From contig PLRJ01000058.1 in NCBI GenBank assembly GCA_003163855.1, positions 53,601 to 111,809 of the forward strand: DNA of 58,209 nt. Reading direction: 5' to 3'. Below are positions 3,898 through 17,641 of this stretch, piece by piece. The position numbers and the translations under genes are program-made. Position 1 is the first letter of the stretch; each line of letters opens with the position of its first letter. The notes beneath the pieces were generated by a model, which did no database searches, was not told the origin of the DNA, and saw only the letters and a list, made by a program, of their open reading frames with translations. Source of the DNA: Bryobacterales bacterium. GTDB lineage: Bacteria > Acidobacteriota > Terriglobia > Bryobacterales > Bryobacteraceae.

Positions 3898-4947
3898 TCA
3901 GTAATCGTAGATGTGCTCGATTTGAATAAGCCCGATAAGCTGGCTTAGTTCATTGACAGGCACCCTGAGCGCGACGCGTTTCGATTGCGGATCGGTCAGT
4001 ATATCCAGCGAAAACAGGAACTCGCCGACCGGCAAAGTAAAAGTCCACGAACGCGGGACAACGGCAGTGACCATAATCTGGCGATTGCCGGCGATGGTTA
4101 CGAATCTGGCCGCGGAAGCCAGTAGCCGCATGGCGGCGGCGGTAAAGCTCTGGTAGCGCGGCATCTTAACGATCTGAACCGCGGGAGTGGCTGCCAGATT
4201 CTGAACCTCGGCATAAGTGACGTCTTCTTCAACGCCATAAGTGGCATGACTTGCCAGTTGAATCAGGCTGCAATAGGCGGCTTCAACAAGGTAATCGAGC
4301 GAGAGCCATACTTTGCGCTCCCACTTCCGCACGGGGTGCGGACCCCAAAGTTTCGTACTGGTCCATAGGCCACGAAAAGCTCGCAGAAACTTGAATTCAT
4401 AGAACGGCCTCTCCAGGACAAAAACTCCATAATCTTGCGCGATATTGGCGGCGTAGCAATCTTCTTCGATAAGTTTGCCGCCGCTCGACCATTCGCTTAT
4501 ACGGCCGACAGTATCCTCATACGCGCCTTTCAGCGCGTACTCAACCGTGAAACTGGTTCCGATAACCGCCAGCATCAGATGATCGCCGAAGTTGAACGGA
4601 TATTTGTCCCGCACGACGCTGTAGGAACAGCAGTAGCCACTCCAATATTGCTCAATCGCTTGGAAGTATGGGAAACCCGATGGCAGGTGCGTCTGCTGCC
4701 AGACTGCTTTTTCCTGATAACTCCAGACGATGTACCATTCGGCATATGTAAGGAAAGTATCGTCTTCCGGACGCGCATAGCCTGCGATTTTGCGGCCGGT
4801 TGCCGTTTGAACGGAGGGTTGAAAGTGGGCCTGAACGGTGTGGCAGTGAACAGCGAAGGCGGTTACGGCTGCAAGAAACAAGGAGCCTGCAGCAACACAC
4901 ACGATTAACGCGCGTTTTAGCAGCTTAGGCACGCTGGGGAATCGCAT
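3898..4947 (-). CDS. uncharacterised membrane-anchored protein, 349 aa
   Basis: Function not recognised. One hydrophobic segment (about residues 10-33, ALIVCVAAGSLFLAAVTAFA) looks like an uncleaved anchor or signal, so most of the chain should lie outside the cytoplasm. The body is rich in aromatic residues (TYAEWYIVWSYQEKAVWQQ) and has a Cys pair (GYCCSY). The ATG at 4947 is favoured over 4977 because AAAGGA stands 7-8 bases upstream. It overlaps the end of the four-helix membrane protein by 23 bp, which suggests that the two are translated together and may act together at the membrane. Confidence 0.65.
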   Translation of the reverse strand: MRFPSVPKLLKRALIVCVAAGSLFLAAVTAFAVHCHTVQAHFQPSVQTATGRKIAGYARPEDDTFLTYAEWYIVWSYQEKAVWQQTHLPSGFPYFQAIEQYWSGYCCSYSVVRDKYPFNFGDHLMLAVIGTSFTVEYALKGAYEDTVGRISEWSSGGKLIEEDCYAANIAQDYGVFVLERPFYEFKFLRAFRGLWTSTKLWGPHPVRKWERKVWLSLDYLVEAAYCSLIQLASHATYGVEEDVTYAEVQNLAATPAVQIVKMPRYQSFTAAAMRLLASAARFVTIAGNRQIMVTAVVPRSWTFTLPVGEFLFSLDILTDPQSKRVALRVPVNELSQLIGLIQIEHIYDY

Positions 4948-5332
4948 ACGCGGGTCCTTTATCCACTGTCGCCGCAATGATAAAGGCCGCGATGAAGATG
5001 ATGGTGTGAGGCAGGTTCACTAGAAAATTCGTTTTCGGACTCATGCTGTGGAGATGGCTGAAGACGTAGATGAAGACATCAAGTCCGTAGACGACGCCAA
5101 GCATCCAGAAGTACAAGCGCGCGGCCTTCTTTGAAATAAGCGCACCGATGACTGCCAGCGCTCCAAGAGCCAGATGCCCGGCATCTACAATCGGCGTCAT
5201 GCTAAACAAGCCAAACATCTTGCCGTTCGCGTCCATAACCCCCGGCACGAAGTCGAGCGAATAGACTCCCAGGAACAGAACTGCGAATCCCCAGGCAACT
5301 TTCTGAATGGTGCTAACGTTCTTAAGCGGCAT
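4925..5332 (-). CDS. four-helix membrane protein (DUF4383-like)
   Basis: A 135-aa protein with four predicted transmembrane helices: VAWGFAVLFLGVYSLDFVPG, HLALGALAVIGALIS, YFWMLGVVYGLDVFIYVF and TIIFIAAFIIAATV. The spacing, with a Leu-Gly pattern in the second helix and a His-x-x-x-Gly start (GHLALG), resembles the DUF4383 group of small membrane proteins, but this is from memory. It is the first gene of the minus-strand unit ending at xerC and starts only 38 bp from the divergent GMC oxidoreductase start at 5371. The function is unknown. Confidence 0.6.
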   Translation of the reverse strand: MPLKNVSTIQKVAWGFAVLFLGVYSLDFVPGVMDANGKMFGLFSMTPIVDAGHLALGALAVIGALISKKAARLYFWMLGVVYGLDVFIYVFSHLHSMSPKTNFLVNLPHTIIFIAAFIIAATVDKGPAYAIPQRA

Positions 5333-7446: not shown

Positions 7447-7512
7447 TTTCCCTTTCCTTAACTTACTTACGTTACGCTAATGGCAATCAACATCCATTAG
7501 GAGGGCGTAGGC

Positions 7513-10500
7513 TTGCCAATGAAAATGAGGGCAGCGCGCATAAAGCTACTCGGAGTCTTGTGCGCCGCGGGACTGGCCTTTGCCGCCGAACCCGACCAGA
7601 AAACCACGTCAGGCTCGTCCGATGCATTGAACGTTCTTTACAGTGGCCGATTCTTCGGCTACTTTCGTTATCCGGATATTCAGAACCGGTTGGCAGAAGG
7701 ATGCCCCAGCGATGATCAAAGTCTAAGCGCTGCGGCAGCGGAATATTTAAATCACGTGGGTGAGCGTCCATCCGGACAGATCCGTGTGGCCATGGGCGAC
7801 AACTTCGCGCCCGAATTTCTTTCCCGAACCCTTTACGATGATGAGCGCCCGCCAGCGGCTTTCAAGTCGCGTGACCTGTATACTCCGCTTGAAGACCCGG
7901 CAAACTCCTCGCACTGGATCTGGACGGTGGACGATCCTAAAAAGAAGGATGTCAGGCCGTTTGAAGGCCGCGTGCCATCCGACAATGTGGGCTGCTTCCT
8001 GAAGAAGGCTGGATTTCAAGCCATCGTGCCTGGCAAAGACGACTTCTACTTTGGTCCGGAGCGCGTCTCCCAAATCGCGAATTTCCTCAGGCAGAGGTCG
8101 GGCAAACTGGAACCGGTCCAGATGCTGGGTGCCAATCTGACCGTTGTTACAGAGACTTTGAACGGCAACAAGCCGCTTCCCATCGAAAAACTCGATGAGA
8201 AACTTCAGAACGTGTTCCGGCCGAAGCCAGGGGTCAAGCTATCGATACCGAGAGAAGTGCTTCCATGGCTGCACCAGATCGATTTACGTGAGGAAAAGTC
8301 GAGTGCGCCGGCAGGTTTTCTCTGCCAACCGAAAGAGGGCGATCCCTATAAGTTTGAGTTCCCGCAATATGGCACGAGGACGAATGGGTGCGAAGGACCC
8401 ATTATGCCTACAGCCGGCCCGAAGTCCCAGTCTTGGCGGTTCGAACTGCCGCCAAACAAGCAGTTGCAATCTCCTTTCTTCTTGGAGCCGGGCAGGAACT
8501 ATGTGTTTTGCATCCTTCATCCAAGCGCTGACGCATCAAGGGACATCTGTCAGGCCTTTACGACGAAACGACCGCTTCTTGAGGTTTATGGGGCCGGCAA
8601 GCCACTGCCTTATTTTGTAGATGCAAAGGAAAGCGTTGCCGTGTTCGGCGTCGTTGATGAAGACATGCTGAAACAGATCGGTCTTTTGAACTATTCCTGG
8701 CTCAACCTGAAGTCAGACCTCGCGACAACGCTAAGAATAATTCCTGCAGCCGACGCGCTTGAGCAGGTTATGCAATTGTGCGACGAAGACAGCGAATGCA
8801 AGAACGCCAGGCGCAGGATCCTGCTGGCGCAAATGCCGACCGCAAAAGCGCAGGACCTTACGCGCGACTTGGCGGACCGGATGAAAATACATTTCGATCT
8901 GGTGATTACGCAAGTAGACCGGGAGAACTTCACCGGCACTACCAGCCTTTCAAGGCTTGAAAGGCTTGAAAAAACCGAGGGGCCTGCCTTGAAGGTTGCT
9001 TCGCGCGGCCCGTTTATTGTGGTACCGGATTCCCAGTTCGAACCCGCTCCCCACGAAGAACAATTTACCGTTCGCGTGCAACAGGCTCATTTGCAGCGGA
9101 AACCCTGTATGGCACCTTGCCAAGAGTTCTGGAGCTATCTGCAAAACGACGTCGAGGAATATCCGTTGCGGGTGGAAGAACATGAGGTGCCTAAGATCAG
9201 GGCATTTGAAAAAACGATACAAGACAGCGCTAAGGTCAAGGGCGACTTGCAGGCGGCGATTCTTAGTTTGACAAAGGAACGGATGCAGAGTTTTTGCCAC
9301 TCCGATGTAGCGATGCTTCAGTTACGCGACATATTCGCGAAATATCAGACAGTTGTGCAATTTTGGCCAAGGCCAGCGGACCAAGCTACATTCGATGCGC
9401 TCTTTACAGAAGAAAATTATCTTGAAGAAATTCTCTGGAAGGGCGATTTCGCCATCTGCAGAACCATAACCGGTGCTGGTCTTAAGAAGGCTCTTCAGCA
9501 ATCAAGGACGCTAGAGGTTTCGTCGCCGGACCTAAAGCTCGACGCCATCGGTGTTGAGCCGGATAACATTCACGATACCTTTACCATCCACGGCAACCAG
9601 TTGGATGCCAAGGCTCTCTATAGCGTTGCGCTGACAGATTTCCTCGCCTTCGGTGACACGCTCTACCCGGACCTTGCGGCGCCCGAACTGCCGCCCGGGG
9701 ACACTATCCATACCTTCGACCATCAGCCGTTCCGTCCCATCGCAAATATCGTCGCTAAGGACCTCTATCCGAAATTGGAAGCCCGCTCGCTTCCTCCGTT
9801 GGAGTACTTTGACACTACCAAAGACCAGCCAGCCGATAGAACGGGCGGCTTCAGCAACACGGTAAAGATGATCGACTGGTTTCAGCATTGGGCGGTTCCG
9901 TACGATTTCACGGCTACTCTGGGCGAGATTGGAAAGAAGCCGGACGATAAAACCTATGCGCAGCATCGTCCGCTGACTTTTTTCAATCTGGAGAAACTGA
10001 ACGTCGCTTACAACCTCACCACCATTAACGGTCCCCAGCAACTGGTGAATGCGCGCTTCGGATCCATAACGAACGTCCCGCAACTTCAGAATGTCGAGCA
10101 GCAAAGCGTGACCATATGGGATAGAGTTCGCTTCGGTCATGAATTTCCAGAGTTGCTTGACCTGTTCGGGATGACTGACAACCGCTACGGATTTAAACGC
10201 CAGCGCAAGATTACAGACATCACCAGTTCAAAGGTCGGCAATGGAGAAATAACGGGATACCAGGACCCATACACCTCCAGCATTCAAGACAATTCCATCG
10301 GCGGGGAAGCCGGCGTGCTCTTCAAACGCGTCTCGAAAAATATACCTTTTCGATTTCTAATCTCGGAGCGTATGTTGACCCAATTGCGGCGGCCCTTGCT
10401 CAGTTATACGGCGCCTTATACGCAGAGCGCTGTGGCGCCGCAGAGCGTGCCTTCGAATTGCGACACCAGTAGCAGCGATGTGAAGTTGCCCGTAGTCGGC

Positions 10501-11160
10501 GGCACAAGTTCCACGAGCATTCTCTGCACCGTGCCGCGCAGTTATCTCCAGGAGACTAAATTTGGCACGCGGCTGGAAAACCTGGATAGCTGGATCGAGT
10601 TCGGCTGGCAAGTGGGGAACAACTTCAACAGCACGGGAGATTCGTTCTTCAATAAGAATGCCCCGAATCAGCTTGCGTGTCCGGCGAACACGGAACTGAG
10701 CTTGTCGGATTGCATTATTGCCGGCAACGCCGCCAATGCCAGCCTCGGAATCAATCAACTTTCGCCGCTGTACATCACCCACCGGACGCTACCCGTATCC
10801 GGCGCGTTCGTAAACTTCAAGATTCTGGTTCCGCTGTTTCCGCCAAAGCTGCAATTGAGCATCGAGAACTATTCGGAATTCTTTGTAAAGAGAGCCGACG
10901 ATAATGCAACCGACACGCGCTTTTACGAAGATGCCATCATCTCACTCCCGATCAAGCTAGGACAGAACTTCAGCTTCTCTCCGCAGGTGGAGCTTTTCGA
11001 TTTCCAGAACAAGGTGGTGCCTTACCACTTTCTGAGCCTTGTGAGCCAGTTTACGCTGGATTACAACTTCGCCTGGCATAGCGGGGTGCGCGCAGACAAG
11101 GCGCTTACTTACCCGTATCCAACATCAGTTTCTAAAACGCAAACTCTGCCTGTTCCGTAA
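7513..11160 (+). CDS. 5'-nucleotidase-like protein with most metal ligands replaced, plus C-terminal barrel-like domain
   Basis: 1,215 aa, exported (signal peptide about residues 1-25). AGGAGGG at 7499-7505 lies 7 bases before the TTG at 7513, which I take as the start; an ATG two codons later is the alternative. Residues 38-480 follow the order of the UshA/5'-nucleotidase metallophosphatase domain, but several ligand motifs are altered. The usual DxHG strand reads YSGRFFGYF (43-51), the GNHEFD position reads GKDDFYFG (174-181), the LSH position reads LAQMP (438-442) and the GHSHT position reads ITQVDREN (465-472). The GGD strand survives as AMGDNF (93-98) and the ANI strand as GANLT (206-210). 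A Cys-containing insertion covers about 235-370. A nucleotidase C-terminal domain follows at about 590-720 (TGAGLKKAL, ALYSVALTDFLAFGD). Residues about 800-1215 have alternating beta-strands that look like an outer-membrane barrel. I infer a non-catalytic binding or surface protein. Confidence 0.7.
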   Translation: MPMKMRAARIKLLGVLCAAGLAFAAEPDQKTTSGSSDALNVLYSGRFFGYFRYPDIQNRLAEGCPSDDQSLSAAAAEYLNHVGERPSGQIRVAMGDNFAPEFLSRTLYDDERPPAAFKSRDLYTPLEDPANSSHWIWTVDDPKKKDVRPFEGRVPSDNVGCFLKKAGFQAIVPGKDDFYFGPERVSQIANFLRQRSGKLEPVQMLGANLTVVTETLNGNKPLPIEKLDEKLQNVFRPKPGVKLSIPREVLPWLHQIDLREEKSSAPAGFLCQPKEGDPYKFEFPQYGTRTNGCEGPIMPTAGPKSQSWRFELPPNKQLQSPFFLEPGRNYVFCILHPSADASRDICQAFTTKRPLLEVYGAGKPLPYFVDAKESVAVFGVVDEDMLKQIGLLNYSWLNLKSDLATTLRIIPAADALEQVMQLCDEDSECKNARRRILLAQMPTAKAQDLTRDLADRMKIHFDLVITQVDRENFTGTTSLSRLERLEKTEGPALKVASRGPFIVVPDSQFEPAPHEEQFTVRVQQAHLQRKPCMAPCQEFWSYLQNDVEEYPLRVEEHEVPKIRAFEKTIQDSAKVKGDLQAAILSLTKERMQSFCHSDVAMLQLRDIFAKYQTVVQFWPRPADQATFDALFTEENYLEEILWKGDFAICRTITGAGLKKALQQSRTLEVSSPDLKLDAIGVEPDNIHDTFTIHGNQLDAKALYSVALTDFLAFGDTLYPDLAAPELPPGDTIHTFDHQPFRPIANIVAKDLYPKLEARSLPPLEYFDTTKDQPADRTGGFSNTVKMIDWFQHWAVPYDFTATLGEIGKKPDDKTYAQHRPLTFFNLEKLNVAYNLTTINGPQQLVNARFGSITNVPQLQNVEQQSVTIWDRVRFGHEFPELLDLFGMTDNRYGFKRQRKITDITSSKVGNGEITGYQDPYTSSIQDNSIGGEAGVLFKRVSKNIPFRFLISERMLTQLRRPLLSYTAPYTQSAVAPQSVPSNCDTSSSDVKLPVVGGTSSTSILCTVPRSYLQETKFGTRLENLDSWIEFGWQVGNNFNSTGDSFFNKNAPNQLACPANTELSLSDCIIAGNAANASLGINQLSPLYITHRTLPVSGAFVNFKILVPLFPPKLQLSIENYSEFFVKRADDNATDTRFYEDAIISLPIKLGQNFSFSPQVELFDFQNKVVPYHFLSLVSQFTLDYNFAWHSGVRADKALTYPYPTSVSKTQTLPVP

Positions 11161-13008: not shown

Positions 13009-15165
13009 TTACTTGCAACTCAGCGGCGCTGAAACCACTATCCACTGAAAGAAGTCGCGCCCGTCGTCGGCAGCCGCTATCCGCAGGTGCTTTACTTCAG
13101 ATGGAAAACGCACACGCCAGGCAGACCACAACCTATCGCCATCGCGAAACGGAAGTTCCGCCAGCTGTTTGCCGGAATCGGAATCCAGCAAATGCGCCGA
13201 TAAGCCGCGGGTGAAATTGCCATGCAGAATGGGAATCACTACGCAGCCTTTAAGAGGAGCATCAAATGGAGACGAGACTATCCGACCCGCCGCGTGCGGC
13301 GGAAGGCGATAGGCAGGCTCTGATGGCAACCAGCCATAAGCGGGAGGTTGCTGAACGCTGGTAGGTGATACCAGCCGTTCGCCCGTCCAAATGACGTTAG
13401 GCAGGACACCGCCTATCTCCGATGCCGAAGCTGCCTCTATCGACGGGACACTTGCCACGCCGCGCAGCGGCACGAGCCCCTTGCGCGTGACTACGGCTGC
13501 TCGTATGCCCGATTTAGGCGCTGCAGCTGCGTAATTGATAAATCCAACCCAGGCTTCTTGCGTTGGAGTTATCTCCGTACGCAACTCCGGTGGAAAGCCG
13601 GCCGGCAGCCACTCTCCGAAACCTACAACACGTTCTTGCTCATCCATTAGAAGTAGCCATCGAAACGGACCGCGAGCGGCCGAAACGTCCGCCCAGCCTA
13701 CCACTTGCGCTCCATGCTCCGCCGGAAAAGTGTAGCTGATTTCGCCCGGTATGTTCTGGGCCTGCAAGTCTCCGAACCTTGTGGCGCTTTGTCCCAGCCA
13801 TCGCTGGCGATCGTCATAAAACAACGCCATCCGGTCTCGCCTAAGCAGCGGCAGATACAGCGCCACAAACTCGGGCGACGGAAAGATTCTTTCAATTAGT
13901 TGCGAATCCACCAAGCCATTGTCAATACTCAGTGCTGCTAACTGACCGTGCTGAAAATACTCCGCGGCATCTTTTTGCCAAATGCGCAGCTTGTACATGC
14001 TGATTAGCAGGCATATTGAAACGGCCACCGTTATTCTCGGAACTGTAACGATCCGCCACTTCAAGCGCCCGCTTAACCAGACCACCAGGATCAACAATGC
14101 TGCCCAATTCACCAGCGGCATGGTCAAATAACGCGTGGCCCGTGCAGCCGCGACATCTTTATCGACAGTGTCCATGCGGCCCGCAGCCGTCATGACAGCC
14201 GTCAACAGCGTGAATGTGGCATAGCCGAACAGGACGACAGCCGGAGAAGTGCCAAGTAAACCGTGACGCTTGGCCAAAACAAAGAGTGCTGCAAACGTCA
14301 AGATCGACAACAGGCCGACAGAGGCTCCAAAGGCCGGATGCATCATGCCGCCAAACGGCATGCTCAAGTAACCTCCCACGAAGCCAAAGAAATACGCCGG
14401 ATGCGCCAATGGGCCTCCGAGGTTTGTATCGCGTGAGAAACGATAATCGACGAAATACAGTGAAGTGAAAGTAACGGCGCAGATTGCCAGCCACACTAAA
14501 AACCTCCGCTGCATGCGAAGAACGACTGCAACTACGAAGAGCAGCGGAAATAGAAGAAGTCCGTTGGCTGAAGAGTAGGTAGCGACAATGCCAGCGGTAA
14601 TGGCGGCCGCCAGCCAACCGCGCGCAAGGCTAAGCAGTGAAAATACAATTGCCAACTGCATCAGTGTCCATTGCAATTGAAAGGGCTGTGCCAGGACCAG
14701 TGCTACTACGGGCCAGAAAACAACAACGCCCGAAAGAAGCAGCGTGGTCCAGCGGTCAAGACGAGAAAGCCCACCATCGTTCAGAACTGTGCCGGCAACG
14801 ACTCCCCAGGTTGTTGCATAGCAGAGCACGCTGGCTGCGGTGGTGAGGATCATGCGCCCCTGACCGAGCAGAACGTCGGCGGCAAAGATTACTTCAGGGA
14901 AAATAATGCGGTGTTCATTGTGTTGCTGCCACAGAAAGCCCAGATGCAAGCTGCGATAGCTATTCATGTTCTGCATCACGCGCCAGTAATCGCCGACAGG
15001 AAGGGGAACATAATAGACGACAATGCGTTCAATGGTGCTTAACAAGTCATACGCAAGCCATACAATAAGCGAGTAAGTAAGCGCAACGCGCAGGTAGAAC
15101 GAAACAGAGGGCGGATTCACTTCCCCATCTTCTCGTGGAAACCTAATCAGCTTTGTTCCATCCAA
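13009..15165 (-). CDS. large polytopic membrane protein, GT-C-like layout, with extracytoplasmic C-terminal part
   Basis: 718 aa. The first 400 or so residues carry about 9-11 hydrophobic helices (for example LLLFPLLFVVAVVL and TFAALFVLA). An early loop with charged and aromatic residues (WQQHNEHRIIFPEV, about 79-92) is where GT-C glycosyltransferases place catalytic acids. The last 300 or so residues are soluble, Pro- and Trp-rich and beta-like. The layout fits lipid-linked sugar transferases or similar envelope enzymes, but no diagnostic motif was recognised, so this is a guess. The start is uncertain: TTG at 15165 has no SD, and GTG at 15120 follows a purine-rich stretch. The 15165 start lies 17 bp from the divergent small gene at 15183. 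Confidence 0.6.
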   Translation of the reverse strand: MDGTKLIRFPREDGEVNPPSVSFYLRVALTYSLIVWLAYDLLSTIERIVVYYVPLPVGDYWRVMQNMNSYRSLHLGFLWQQHNEHRIIFPEVIFAADVLLGQGRMILTTAASVLCYATTWGVVAGTVLNDGGLSRLDRWTTLLLSGVVVFWPVVALVLAQPFQLQWTLMQLAIVFSLLSLARGWLAAAITAGIVATYSSANGLLLFPLLFVVAVVLRMQRRFLVWLAICAVTFTSLYFVDYRFSRDTNLGGPLAHPAYFFGFVGGYLSMPFGGMMHPAFGASVGLLSILTFAALFVLAKRHGLLGTSPAVVLFGYATFTLLTAVMTAAGRMDTVDKDVAAARATRYLTMPLVNWAALLILVVWLSGRLKWRIVTVPRITVAVSICLLISMYKLRIWQKDAAEYFQHGQLAALSIDNGLVDSQLIERIFPSPEFVALYLPLLRRDRMALFYDDRQRWLGQSATRFGDLQAQNIPGEISYTFPAEHGAQVVGWADVSAARGPFRWLLLMDEQERVVGFGEWLPAGFPPELRTEITPTQEAWVGFINYAAAAPKSGIRAAVVTRKGLVPLRGVASVPSIEAASASEIGGVLPNVIWTGERLVSPTSVQQPPAYGWLPSEPAYRLPPHAAGRIVSSPFDAPLKGCVVIPILHGNFTRGLSAHLLDSDSGKQLAELPFRDGDRLWSAWRVRFPSEVKHLRIAAADDGRDFFQWIVVSAPLSCK

Positions 15166-15182: not shown

Positions 15183-15455
15183 ATGAACTATCCAGAAATA
15201 ATCAACGACGCAAGACCTGGCCCGCGCAAAGAGCATCGTGAGGGACCGATTGCGCGCAGCATCGAACAACATACGGCTAAATTGCCGTCAGACACCTTTT
15301 TGTGGGCTGCCCTTGGATCCATCGGCATCTCGCTGTTCTTTCAATTTACCGGCGACGAGCGAAAGGCGAATTTCGTGGGCCACTGGGCGCCGACGTTTCT
15401 GCTGTTAGGTCTGTATAACAAATTAGTCAAGCTGCACGGCTCCGAAGGAGTCTAG
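15183..15455 (+). CDS. small membrane-associated protein, 90 aa
   Basis: The ATG at 15183 is preceded by AGGA at 15172-15175 (spacing 7). The N-terminal half is charged ([18 protein letters not shown]); the C-terminal half has two hydrophobic stretches ([18 protein letters not shown] and [15 protein letters not shown]), consistent with a small inner-membrane protein. No family is recognised with certainty. Its stop overlaps the stop of the convergent sensor kinase by four bases. It is divergent from the 718-aa membrane protein, which leaves almost no intergenic space. Confidence 0.55.
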
Positions 15456-17641
15456 CGCGGGCCAGCCGCAAGCGGGCGCTCTTCGACTGTCAATGCGCGC
15501 AGAGCGGCGAGCAATTCGTCCGGCTGGATCGGCTTTGAAACATAAGCGTCCATGCCGGCGCGCATGCACATTTCGCGGTCGCCAATAAGTGCATGGGCGG
15601 TCATAGCAATAATAGGGACATGGCTCTGGCTGCCTTCTATCGACCGGACCAAGGCCGTTGCCTCCAGTCCGTCCATCTCCGGCATGGAAACGTCCATCAG
15701 CACCAAGTCGAAGTACTGGCGCCCTAGGCGCTCGACTGCTTCACGTCCATTGCCGACTGCGATTACTGTATGTCCCCAGCGCTGAAGTAACCTAATCGCC
15801 AGTTTCTGATTGATGGGATTATCTTCCGCTAAAAGGATCTGTAGCGGCCGTTGCTCCCGCGTGTGGCTTTCCGCTAAGGCGGAAATAATATCGACTTGTT
15901 TGGGTGGCACATCGGCGGCGGGTGCCGCAATCGTGAAGGTGAAGCAACTGCCCTCGCCGGGCGTGCTTTCCAACTCAAGATTCCCCCCCATCAGTTTCAA
16001 AAGGCGCGACGAAATGCTGAGGCCCAGTCCAGTGCCGCCGAACCGCCGCGTAGTGGAACCGTCCGCTTGCGCGAACGATTCAAATATCAGCTTCTGCTTT
16101 TGCGGCGGAATGCCAATGCCGGTATCACGAACGGCAAAGCTCAAAAGGTATTCGTCGTTCTCAGTAGCCTTTGAAGATACCTGAACAACAACGCTCCCTT
16201 GATCCGTGAACTTGACAGCGTTGCCAACTAGGTTAATTAGAACCTGCTGCAAGCGGCCTTGGTCGGCAATCACTCCACGCGGCACTTCCGGCCCAACCTG
16301 AAGCTCTACTGGAAGGCCTTTTTGGCGGCCGCGCAGGCAAAACGGTCTCAGAGCCTCTTCCAGAAGTTCGTGCAGGTCGAAGCTTATGGGATCCAGCTCT
16401 AGCCGGCCGGCTTCGATCTTTGAAAAATCGAGAATATCGTTGATAATGCTTAGCAGCGACTGAGCCGAGCTTCTGCTCATCTCCACGTACTCGCGCTGTT
16501 CGTTGGTGAGTTCGGTGTGGAGTAGTAAATCAGTCATGCCGACCACGCCATTCATGGGAGTTCGTATCTCGTGGCTCATATTCGCAAGGAATTCACTCTT
16601 GGCACGGCTAGCGTCTTCAGCCTCGCGCTTGGCCTGGCGTAGACCTGCCTGACCACGCAGCAAGCGGCTTTGTGTCACCAGTAGTCGGCAACTGAAACAA
16701 GCGAACGACCCCATCCCGATAGCCGCTGCCGCCAGTGGATAGTAATGAGCCACCGGGCCCAACTGAGCCATAATCAGCGCTGGATAGAGCAAGGGGAACA
16801 ATTGCTGAAAGGCCGTATGACGAAATTTGCCGGCCGCGGAACCGTCCGGTTCGTCACGGGTGGAAGTGCTTGCCGCCTCTTGCTTTTCCTGCCGATTCCA
16901 ACCGGCCGCAATAATCAGGGCCGTCAGTACGGTCAACGCCCACACCAGATCAAACCAGTCGCCCGGAATCGGTAGCGGAGGAACCATGCCCCAAACCTCG
17001 GCAATACCGGTAACAAGGCAATAGACGGACATGCGTAGGAACATGGAACGAATAACCGGAGAATTGGTCAGCAGTCCTCTGGTGACAAACAATAGCAACA
17101 GCACAGAGTCCACAAACATGTTGCGGTTCCAGATGGGGCCATAGATAGTGGGCGCCATCCCTGCCGGCGTGAAATACACGTAGAGTGTTATCCACAGAAG
17201 CAGCGTCTGCAGCATATCGGCCCAATGAAGCGGATCGAAGCGTGCCGGTTCATGTTCGGGTTCCAAAAAAAGCGTCATCCCTAGCGGCATGGTGGCGAAT
17301 TGAAAGAGCATATCGCCGAAGGCATCCGCGGGCCCTATGGTTCCCAGCCATTGGGCAAAAATCCAGAGGACGAAGGTAAGGAAAATCAGGCGCCAGAAGT
17401 ATCTTCCCAGCGGTCCTGAACGTCGAATTGCCCCGTAACAGGAAGTTGCAGCGGCTACGCCTTCAGCCAGCAGAAACAGCGCCGAAAATAGAGGACCTTT
17501 GCCGCGCATGCCGAAATGGGCGATGCTAGCCGCATGCGCAATGTACAGCGAACAAGCGACGATGATCCAGCGCCGCAAGCTTGCATTGTCAGGTTGCGGG
17601 CGAGCCAGAATACTTTGGCGCCCGACAGGCGAAACTGTCAT
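15452..17641 (-). CDS. hybrid sensor histidine kinase/response regulator with multi-helix membrane sensor
   Basis: 729 aa. About 9-10 hydrophobic helices occupy residues 24-325, so the input domain lies in the membrane. The cytoplasmic part has a HisKA domain with phospho-acceptor His357 ([11 protein letters not shown]), then a HATPase domain with N box ([11 protein letters not shown]), G1 (DTGIGIPPQ) and G2 ([10 protein letters not shown]). A receiver domain follows (about 605-725) with acidic pair AEDNP, phospho-acceptor Asp in [11 protein letters not shown] and Lys in VSKPI. All catalytic residues are present. No output regulator is adjacent, so its partner (an Hpt protein or another regulator) must be elsewhere. 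An 8-bp inverted repeat (CTCTTATC/GATAAGAG) lies just upstream of the start. Confidence 0.9.

Follow-up and report, generated by a model that had tools for sequence, protein, structure and literature searches.

In the 5'-nucleotidase UshA, residues F429 and F498 sandwich the base and His117 acts in catalysis, and the C domain of Escherichia coli CpdB, taken separately, is inactive yet holds the substrate-binding site, according to the account in PMC7922932. Fusions of a metallophosphatase-type domain to an outer-membrane barrel have been described as well: in the 'Metallo' subfamily of Omp85 proteins, a PF00149 domain stands before the Omp85 barrel (PMC4104836, where PF00149 is called a metalloprotease; Pfam names it a calcineurin-like phosphoesterase), and Omp85 barrels are reported to have 16 strands (PMC11116518). 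For the Acidobacteriota, one survey lists no ushA-like or cpdB-like genes by its own criteria (PMC10454023); ordinary proteins with the Pfam domain 5_nucleotid_C do occur in the genomes of this phylum that we searched. Here we analyze a gene in a 58,209-nucleotide stretch of DNA from a Bryobacterales bacterium of the family Bryobacteraceae in that phylum (assembly GCA_003163855.1, contig PLRJ01000058.1, positions 53,601 to 111,809; henceforth the window). It is an open reading frame (ORF) of 1215 codons at 7513-11160 on the + strand, with a TTG start at 7513 and its stop at 11158-11160, and it encodes, judging by profile comparison, a UshA-type two-domain protein of which both halves are homologous to ordinary nucleotidases. 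Together with its relatives it makes a conserved case of an old hydrolase fold that appears to have lost its metal site and is joined to a barrel of the outer membrane.

Nucleotidase homology and the metal site

The homology emerged from profile comparisons (hhalign) with alignment A4, which holds nine ordinary nucleotidases of the phylum from nine of the 13 loci examined; entry required a frame of at least 300 residues and a GDGY/GGDG-like motif, and the other four loci were unused. The N-terminal half (residues 26-265) matched at E=5.2e-8, the best of 20 column-shuffled controls reaching 0.084, and residues 374-726 matched at E=5.5e-21 (4.2e-19 with alignment A3). We accordingly divide the nucleotidase part into the first half of a metallophosphatase-like domain at residues 38-237 (7624-8223), which structure matches indicate as well, its second half at residues 356-545 (8578-9147), and a 5_nucleotid_C or specificity domain at residues 575-752 (9235-9768), these and the other domain bounds being our interpretation of the alignments and models. 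In Pfam the window protein has a single meaningful match, to 5_nucleotid_C over residues 650-719, at 18.4 bits against a cut-off of 23.6; 13 of 15 members of the family described below match this domain at E<=1, the best at 1.3e-7, and L074 and L075 lie above the cut-off. PF00149 (Metallophos) is matched neither by the window protein at E<=10 nor by the 15 members at E<=1. The window genome, which is 89% complete, has 11 PF00149 matches, the window gene not among them, and no other 5_nucleotid_C gene was found in it.

Structure comparisons point the same way. The family profile finds UshA among the sequences of the PDB (E 0.03 over 43 residues), and VIA-align of the full-length AlphaFold model lists E. 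coli UshA in the first eight of 50 rows (Z 8.8 to 7.2, root-mean-square deviation (rmsd) 14-16 Å), the top match having Z 8.8 and an rmsd of 14.6 over 311 residues of this low-confidence model. Rows 9-17 of the 50 listed are other 5'-nucleotidases, SoxB and NadN, and the matches span model residues 6-687. Foldseek returned nothing at E<=0.001 for the full-length model, and no nucleotidase stands among the 50 matches listed, the top ones being mostly immunoglobulin (Ig)-like domains and barrels. A phmmer search of the PDB with the window protein gave chance matches only (bunyavirus polymerase L, E 0.45), and NCBIfam gave one chance match (E 0.18).

The di-metal ligand set of UshA-type enzymes, which we take to be D, H, D, N, H, H and H/Q, is changed at six of its seven columns in the window protein, where R46, F48, D96, K175, Q440, V468 and R470 stand instead. 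In the N-terminal half, hhalign places YSGRFFGY (7639-7662) on NDxHG, with R46 for D and F48 for H; MGDN (7792-7803) on AGD, the sole metal-ligand motif kept (D96); and GKDDFYFG (8032-8055) on GNHEFDFG, with K175 for the bridging N and D176 for the catalytic H. In the remainder, LLAQM (8821-8835) falls on LTH, with Q440 for H, and ITQVDREN (8905-8928; aligned as ITQVDRE) falls on GGHxH, with V468 and R470 at both His positions. An earlier interpretation made without database searches, henceforth the sequence-only reading, had proposed both the UshA-type fold and the replacement of the GNHEFD, LSH and GHSHT motifs. The fold is borne out by the profile homology of both halves and by UshA heading the structure list, and the substitutions fall in the right columns. 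That reading also held that only the GGD strand is kept; one ligand motif is indeed kept, and its strand reads MGDN.

These changes are shared across the family, for which N-terminal columns are covered by 16 instead of 17 rows because L004 lacks its N-terminal half. The first Asp ligand is retained in 1/16 rows, the first His in 0/16, the second Asp in 15/16 (E in the other) and the bridging Asn in 0/16; the His of LTH survives in 1/17 rows, and neither the GGH His nor the last His in any of 17. Two of the seven ligands are the most that any family row keeps. Basic residues have taken two of these positions, position 46 being R or K in 13/16 rows (elsewhere H, G and D) and position 175 K or R in 14/16 (Q and M in the remaining two). 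Among the columns of the nucleotidase part that are covered by at least 14 rows, none has His at 85% or more, and four acids or Asn are conserved, namely D96 (15/16 rows), D157, D177 and N208 (16/16 each). Because the relatives share one build, the basic replacements and invariant residues of their own, we read the alignment as conserved repurposing, not decay.

Specificity domain, insert and barrel

The specificity domain has been retained and its motifs rewritten. QLRDIF (9319-9336) replaces NGGxIR, with Q603-x-R605-D606 in its place and residue 608 in the arginine column; WKGD (9436-9447) replaces PFxN, with K643-G-D645 for FxN; and DFLAFGDTLYP (9637-9669) corresponds to NFNATGGDGYP of UshA, such that F710 aligns with F498 and T716 with D504 (UshA numbers were derived from the chain ranges in the alignment of the family profile to the PDB). 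Eight residues, Q603, R605, D606, K643, G644, D645, T716 and Y718, are each invariant in 17/17 rows. Likewise in all 17 rows, the column of the base-stacking aromatic F498 is F or Y, that of D504, presumably a residue of the nucleotide pocket, is T, and the arginine column of GGxIR is F or Y. Because of the changes in the latter two columns, the ligand may be something other than a nucleotide. The share of fully invariant columns is highest in the specificity domain among eight segments (10.1%), followed by 8.5% and 6.3% in the first and second metallophosphatase halves, and is 3.2% in the barrel. Conservation and loop statistics use 12 whole rows out of 15, excluding L004, L021 and L022, which are cut by contig ends; L074 and L075 lie outside that alignment. 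The window row of alignment A5 was trimmed to residues 1-796.

Between the metallophosphatase halves lies an insert of approximately residues 238-355 (8224-8577) with conserved Cys, which is probably a beta-sandwich of the Ig or fibronectin type III (Fn3) kind: in VIA-align the low-confidence model of this segment matches such sandwiches at Z 4.2-5.4, a level that the tool calls common. C271 and C333 are present in 17/17 rows and C346 in 15/17; beyond the insert, C423 is present in 16/17 and C429 in 15/17.

A variable linker with a helix (residues 753-815, 9769-9957) leads to the C-terminal part, for which the models and structure matches indicate an outer-membrane beta-barrel of 12 strands (residues 816-1190, 9958-11082) and, beyond its last strand, a tail of 25 residues (11083-11157). 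Modelled alone, this part reaches moderate confidence (mean predicted local distance difference test (pLDDT) 63, predicted template modelling score 0.58, strand blocks at 72-89) and shows a helix at model residues 13-18 and then the 12 strands. Foldseek gave 88 matches at E<=0.001, and the 50 listed are all outer-membrane barrels with FapF and NalP in the lead, the template modelling scores by query length being only 0.20-0.34. VIA-align reached Z 14.6 with PcoB (190 residues, rmsd 3.2), followed by OMPLA, NanC, CymA, OmpG, Tsx, FapF and autotransporters. At the level of the model, then, the structure matches fix the barrel, not its family.

The strand connections of this model bear on the side of the membrane that the nucleotidase part would face. 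Over the 12 whole rows the odd connections average 22.5, 7.6, 13.3, 33.2, 10.2 and 8.6 residues, and the even turns 3.2, 11.4, 2.0, 5.3 and 8.0 residues. The long loops of outer-membrane barrels usually lie outside. Because the odd loops are mostly long and the even turns short, both termini, and with them the N-terminal nucleotidase part, are probably periplasmic. The Cys-containing insertion and the barrel-like C-terminal part of the sequence-only reading are thus both recovered here, the former with its Cys conserved family-wide and the latter in the isolated model. Its suggestion of a surface receptor is not supported, as the loop pattern of the 12-strand model points to the periplasm.

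The remaining features of the gene lie at its start and were called by eye. A likely ribosome-binding site, AGGAGGG (7499-7505), stands 7 nucleotides ahead of the TTG codon, and residues 1-25 (7513-7587) resemble a signal peptide with a basic n-region, a hydrophobic core and AFA-A.

The family, its spread and its neighbours

Searching 60 genomes of relatives with the window protein gave matches in five, the window genome included. G007 holds two copies, of which one matches almost throughout at 44% identity and the other in fragments; the match in G011 is near-complete too, at 35% identity, and G003 and G004 were matched in pieces. Once the loci were translated, the same build appeared in all five genomes except in G003, where the locus runs into a contig end and its N-terminal half is missing. 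In a separate collection of contigs, a protein-only scan found no relative, and a scan with alignment A1 found five loci. A six-member profile then matched 13/200 genomes of the window's own taxonomic family, G089 with a 31-position remnant only. With a 15-member profile, a scan of the class matched 11/299 genomes, seven of them with true members, and revealed whole members in two further taxonomic families (G342 and G299); its leftovers are three short C-domain matches (L061, L062 and L063, the last an ordinary nucleotidase) and one barrel remnant. Across the phylum the same profile matched 20/297 genomes, of which only the window genome (G000) and G342 hold whole members, the rest being short matches. 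Several genomes are incomplete, which makes absences in these scans weak evidence.

In total the family counts 17 loci, 14 whole and three cut by contig ends (G003, G184 and G159), making it a conserved family rather than a single odd protein. By sequence comparison, these loci, from the window's taxonomic family and two others of the class, are one clade with one build: a broken metallophosphatase, a Cys-bearing Ig/Fn3-like insert, a remodelled 5_nucleotid_C domain and a C-terminal barrel modelled with 12 strands. Indeed, in a tree of the nucleotidase part, a branch with 100/100 support splits the 17 family rows from the nine ordinary nucleotidases. Homologues at 24-42% identity hold, like the window gene, one open frame each.

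Among genomes of the class, the barrel was found in the same fusion or as a remnant only: profile A7, built on it, matched 5/250 genomes of the class, four with the same fusion and one with a 139-codon remnant, so it gives no independent hint of function. That remnant (G301:C453:418-747) corresponds to the last portion of the family barrel; no match to the nucleotidase part is listed for it, and it is likely a decayed copy. A likely truncated copy in G089 (G089:C275:7640-7738, L051:4539-4817) is a 93-codon frame with the family's first motif, YTGRLFGYYR, and nothing further that matches. Within a frame of 342 codons in a genome from another family of the phylum, G509:C125:12933-13106 matches the end of the barrel weakly (E 6.9e-5) and is perhaps a distant barrel relative.

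The gene is flanked by genes for a GMC oxidoreductase and a methylmalonyl-CoA mutase, and two further ORFs of the window, at 13012-15165 (718 residues) and 3898-4977 (359 residues), both on the - strand, have no Pfam match at E<=0.001. A blastp comparison of neighbours over 14 loci found, beyond the family itself, two gene pairs common to L046 and L047, which belong to the same genus, and one group spanning three loci. The latter includes a hybrid sensor histidine kinase with a receiver domain at 15455-17641 of the window (- strand), with similar ORFs near L038 and L074; such kinases are common, and its presence near three family loci is perhaps chance. Because the distribution is patchy and neighbours are generally unshared, frequent loss or transfer fits the data, and the incomplete genomes add to the patchiness.

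Proposed function and comparison with known systems

We favour, at slightly less than even confidence, a module that binds without hydrolysing and is attached to an outer-membrane barrel on the periplasmic side. The protein would be secreted, its C-terminal barrel lodged in the outer membrane and the 790 residues at its N-terminus reaching into the periplasm. Its di-metal site would have been lost before the known relatives parted, and because the site is dismantled, hydrolysis of phosphate esters in the UshA manner is not expected; binding without cleavage, which the sequence-only reading had already suggested, appears the likeliest mode. The specificity domain would have been rebuilt into a family-specific pocket, and the basic residues at two former metal-ligand positions could hold an anion or form salt bridges that replace the metals. 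At the barrel's periplasmic mouth, a UshA-like closure of the module's two domains would capture the ligand, and capture would either favour passage through the pore or gate it. A more specific form of this proposal, which we consider quite unlikely, is a metal-free capture channel, an outer-membrane pore with a retired nucleotidase as its periplasmic gate. Arg and Lys would replace both metals and hold the ligand, a nucleotide-like or other anionic compound, by its phosphate; the rebuilt specificity domain would read the rest, and hinge closure would open or shut the pore. If true, a former enzyme would serve an outer-membrane transporter as its ligand-binding domain, and that transporter would belong neither to the TonB/SusCD nor to the porin types.

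Several observations weigh against a periplasmic binding module. With a mean pLDDT of 39 the full-length model is poor and does not fix the mutual orientation of the parts, and its matches to UshA and relatives have an rmsd of 13-16 Å, so only the fold order is taken from it. The pocket is rebuilt to such a degree that binding of a nucleotide does not follow from it. When columns conserved at the 90% level are counted, the specificity domain no longer leads (11.2%, with 11.0% and 11.1% in the metallophosphatase halves), and because of this near-tie conservation alone does not single that domain out. The loop rule is followed imperfectly, since the S4-S5 turn (11.4) exceeds three odd loops and the S10-S11 turn (8.0) exceeds one. 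The catalytic His column, which holds D176 in the window protein, is His in 10/16 rows, unexpected if the site were useless; D96, D157, D177 and N208 could form a smaller metal site; and the barrel could be a plain anchor. Finally, gene neighbourhood was rejected as a guide to function, as the neighbours are generally unshared over the 14 loci.

Two other readings keep the barrel and give it a different role, and we hold both unlikely. In the first, the protein resembles an autotransporter, the nucleotidase-like part being passed through, or assembled with, the 12-strand barrel to act as a surface adhesin or receptor. The order of its parts, from signal peptide through a large N-terminal part and a helix to a C-terminal 12-strand barrel, is the one seen in classical autotransporters, and the structural matches listed include EstA, NalP, EspP, AaaA, Hbp and the secretion barrel FapF; however, VIA-align scores OMPLA, porins, Tsx and CymA no lower, and no Autotransporter family is among the six Pfam families that any of the 15 members matches at E<=1. 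The 25-residue tail after the last strand also speaks against it, as do the conserved N-terminal Cys pairs (C333/C346 and C423/C429), since paired Cys are unusual in autotransporter passengers. In the second, about equally improbable, the barrel is a mere anchor and the degenerate nucleotidase part a protein-binding scaffold, for example for an envelope partner, with no small-molecule ligand. The lost metal site, the probable Ig/Fn3-like insert and the lack of conserved transport neighbours over the 14 loci would all suit such a scaffold, and a tsetse salivary protein related to 5'-nucleotidases is described as binding a protein receptor besides its apyrase activity (PMC2843633). By contrast, the invariant residues of the family occupy columns that are pocket motifs in UshA relatives, a placing more in keeping with a small ligand than with a surface patch, with the proviso that the other halves are nearly as conserved.

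It is decidedly unlikely that the protein is still an enzyme with a different site on the UshA scaffold, using a single metal on D96, D157, D177 and N208 or metal-free chemistry. The conservation of these four residues and the frequent His in the catalytic column favour such an enzyme; against it, the window protein itself has D in that column, no conserved His was found in the nucleotidase part at the level given above, and the D177 and N208 columns are, we presume, acid or Asn in ordinary enzymes too, without a ligand role. A decaying pseudogene whose motif changes are drift is scarcely credible: remnants do exist elsewhere (the 139-codon barrel piece in G301 and the 93-codon frame with its 31-position match in G089), but the window gene has 1215 open codons with a signal peptide and ribosome-binding site, its distant homologues are open too, and the same new invariant residues recur in 17/17 rows, a family-wide conservation that already contradicts decay.

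The periplasmic binding module that we prefer makes clear predictions for the family, namely basic residues in place of metals, a rebuilt pocket and a periplasmic side. It also matters for annotation: if only the C-terminal domain guides the naming, these proteins may be called nucleotidases, though it is very unlikely that they hydrolyse nucleotides.

No description of this architecture was found in the openly licensed PMC literature, which given that scope is weak evidence of novelty. With UshA, CpdB, NadN and SoxB (PF00149 plus PF02872), the window protein shares the two-domain order, fold matches, profile homology and the aromatic residue in the F498 column. It differs from them in six of seven ligands, in the lost catalytic His, in T for D504, in WKGD for PFxN and in QxRD followed by an aliphatic/aromatic pair for NGGxIR, as well as in its large insert, its fused barrel and the failure of PF00149 to score. 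Classical (type Va) autotransporters likewise join a soluble N-terminal part through a helix to a C-terminal 12-strand barrel; by contrast, the window protein leaves PF03797 unmatched at E<=10 (its 15 family members at E<=1), conserves its Cys pairs and carries a tail after the last strand.

A 770-residue protein from another family of the phylum (L080:1161-3470, G464:C18) is built alike: a nucleotidase whose ligand motifs are changed precedes a beta-rich domain at the C-terminus. It is composed of a degenerate metallophosphatase, 5_nucleotid_C and DUF3078, with nucleotidase homology over 442 columns (E=3e-16). Unlike the window family, it has no insert, has canonical-looking C-domain motifs (NRGALRP and SGGDGH) and matches DUF3078. 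A search for its relatives matched 22/247 phylum genomes, its own locus being the only whole match and the others falling within the nucleotidase part. Compared with the family barrel, its barrel scores 27.7, where shuffles reach 21.8 and reversed family barrels 30.0. Loss of the metal site with the binding domain kept may have happened more than once, or both proteins may descend from one fusion.

The nearest published fusion is the Omp85 'Metallo' group, and the window family lacks both of its markers. The barrel of the family is modelled with 12 strands, and neither the window protein nor the 15 members match an Omp85 family in Pfam; PF00149 is recognisable in the 'Metallo' proteins, whereas the corresponding domain here is degenerate and has 5_nucleotid_C behind it. 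What the two groups have in common is the plan itself, an N-terminal domain of the PF00149 type joined to a C-terminal outer-membrane barrel.

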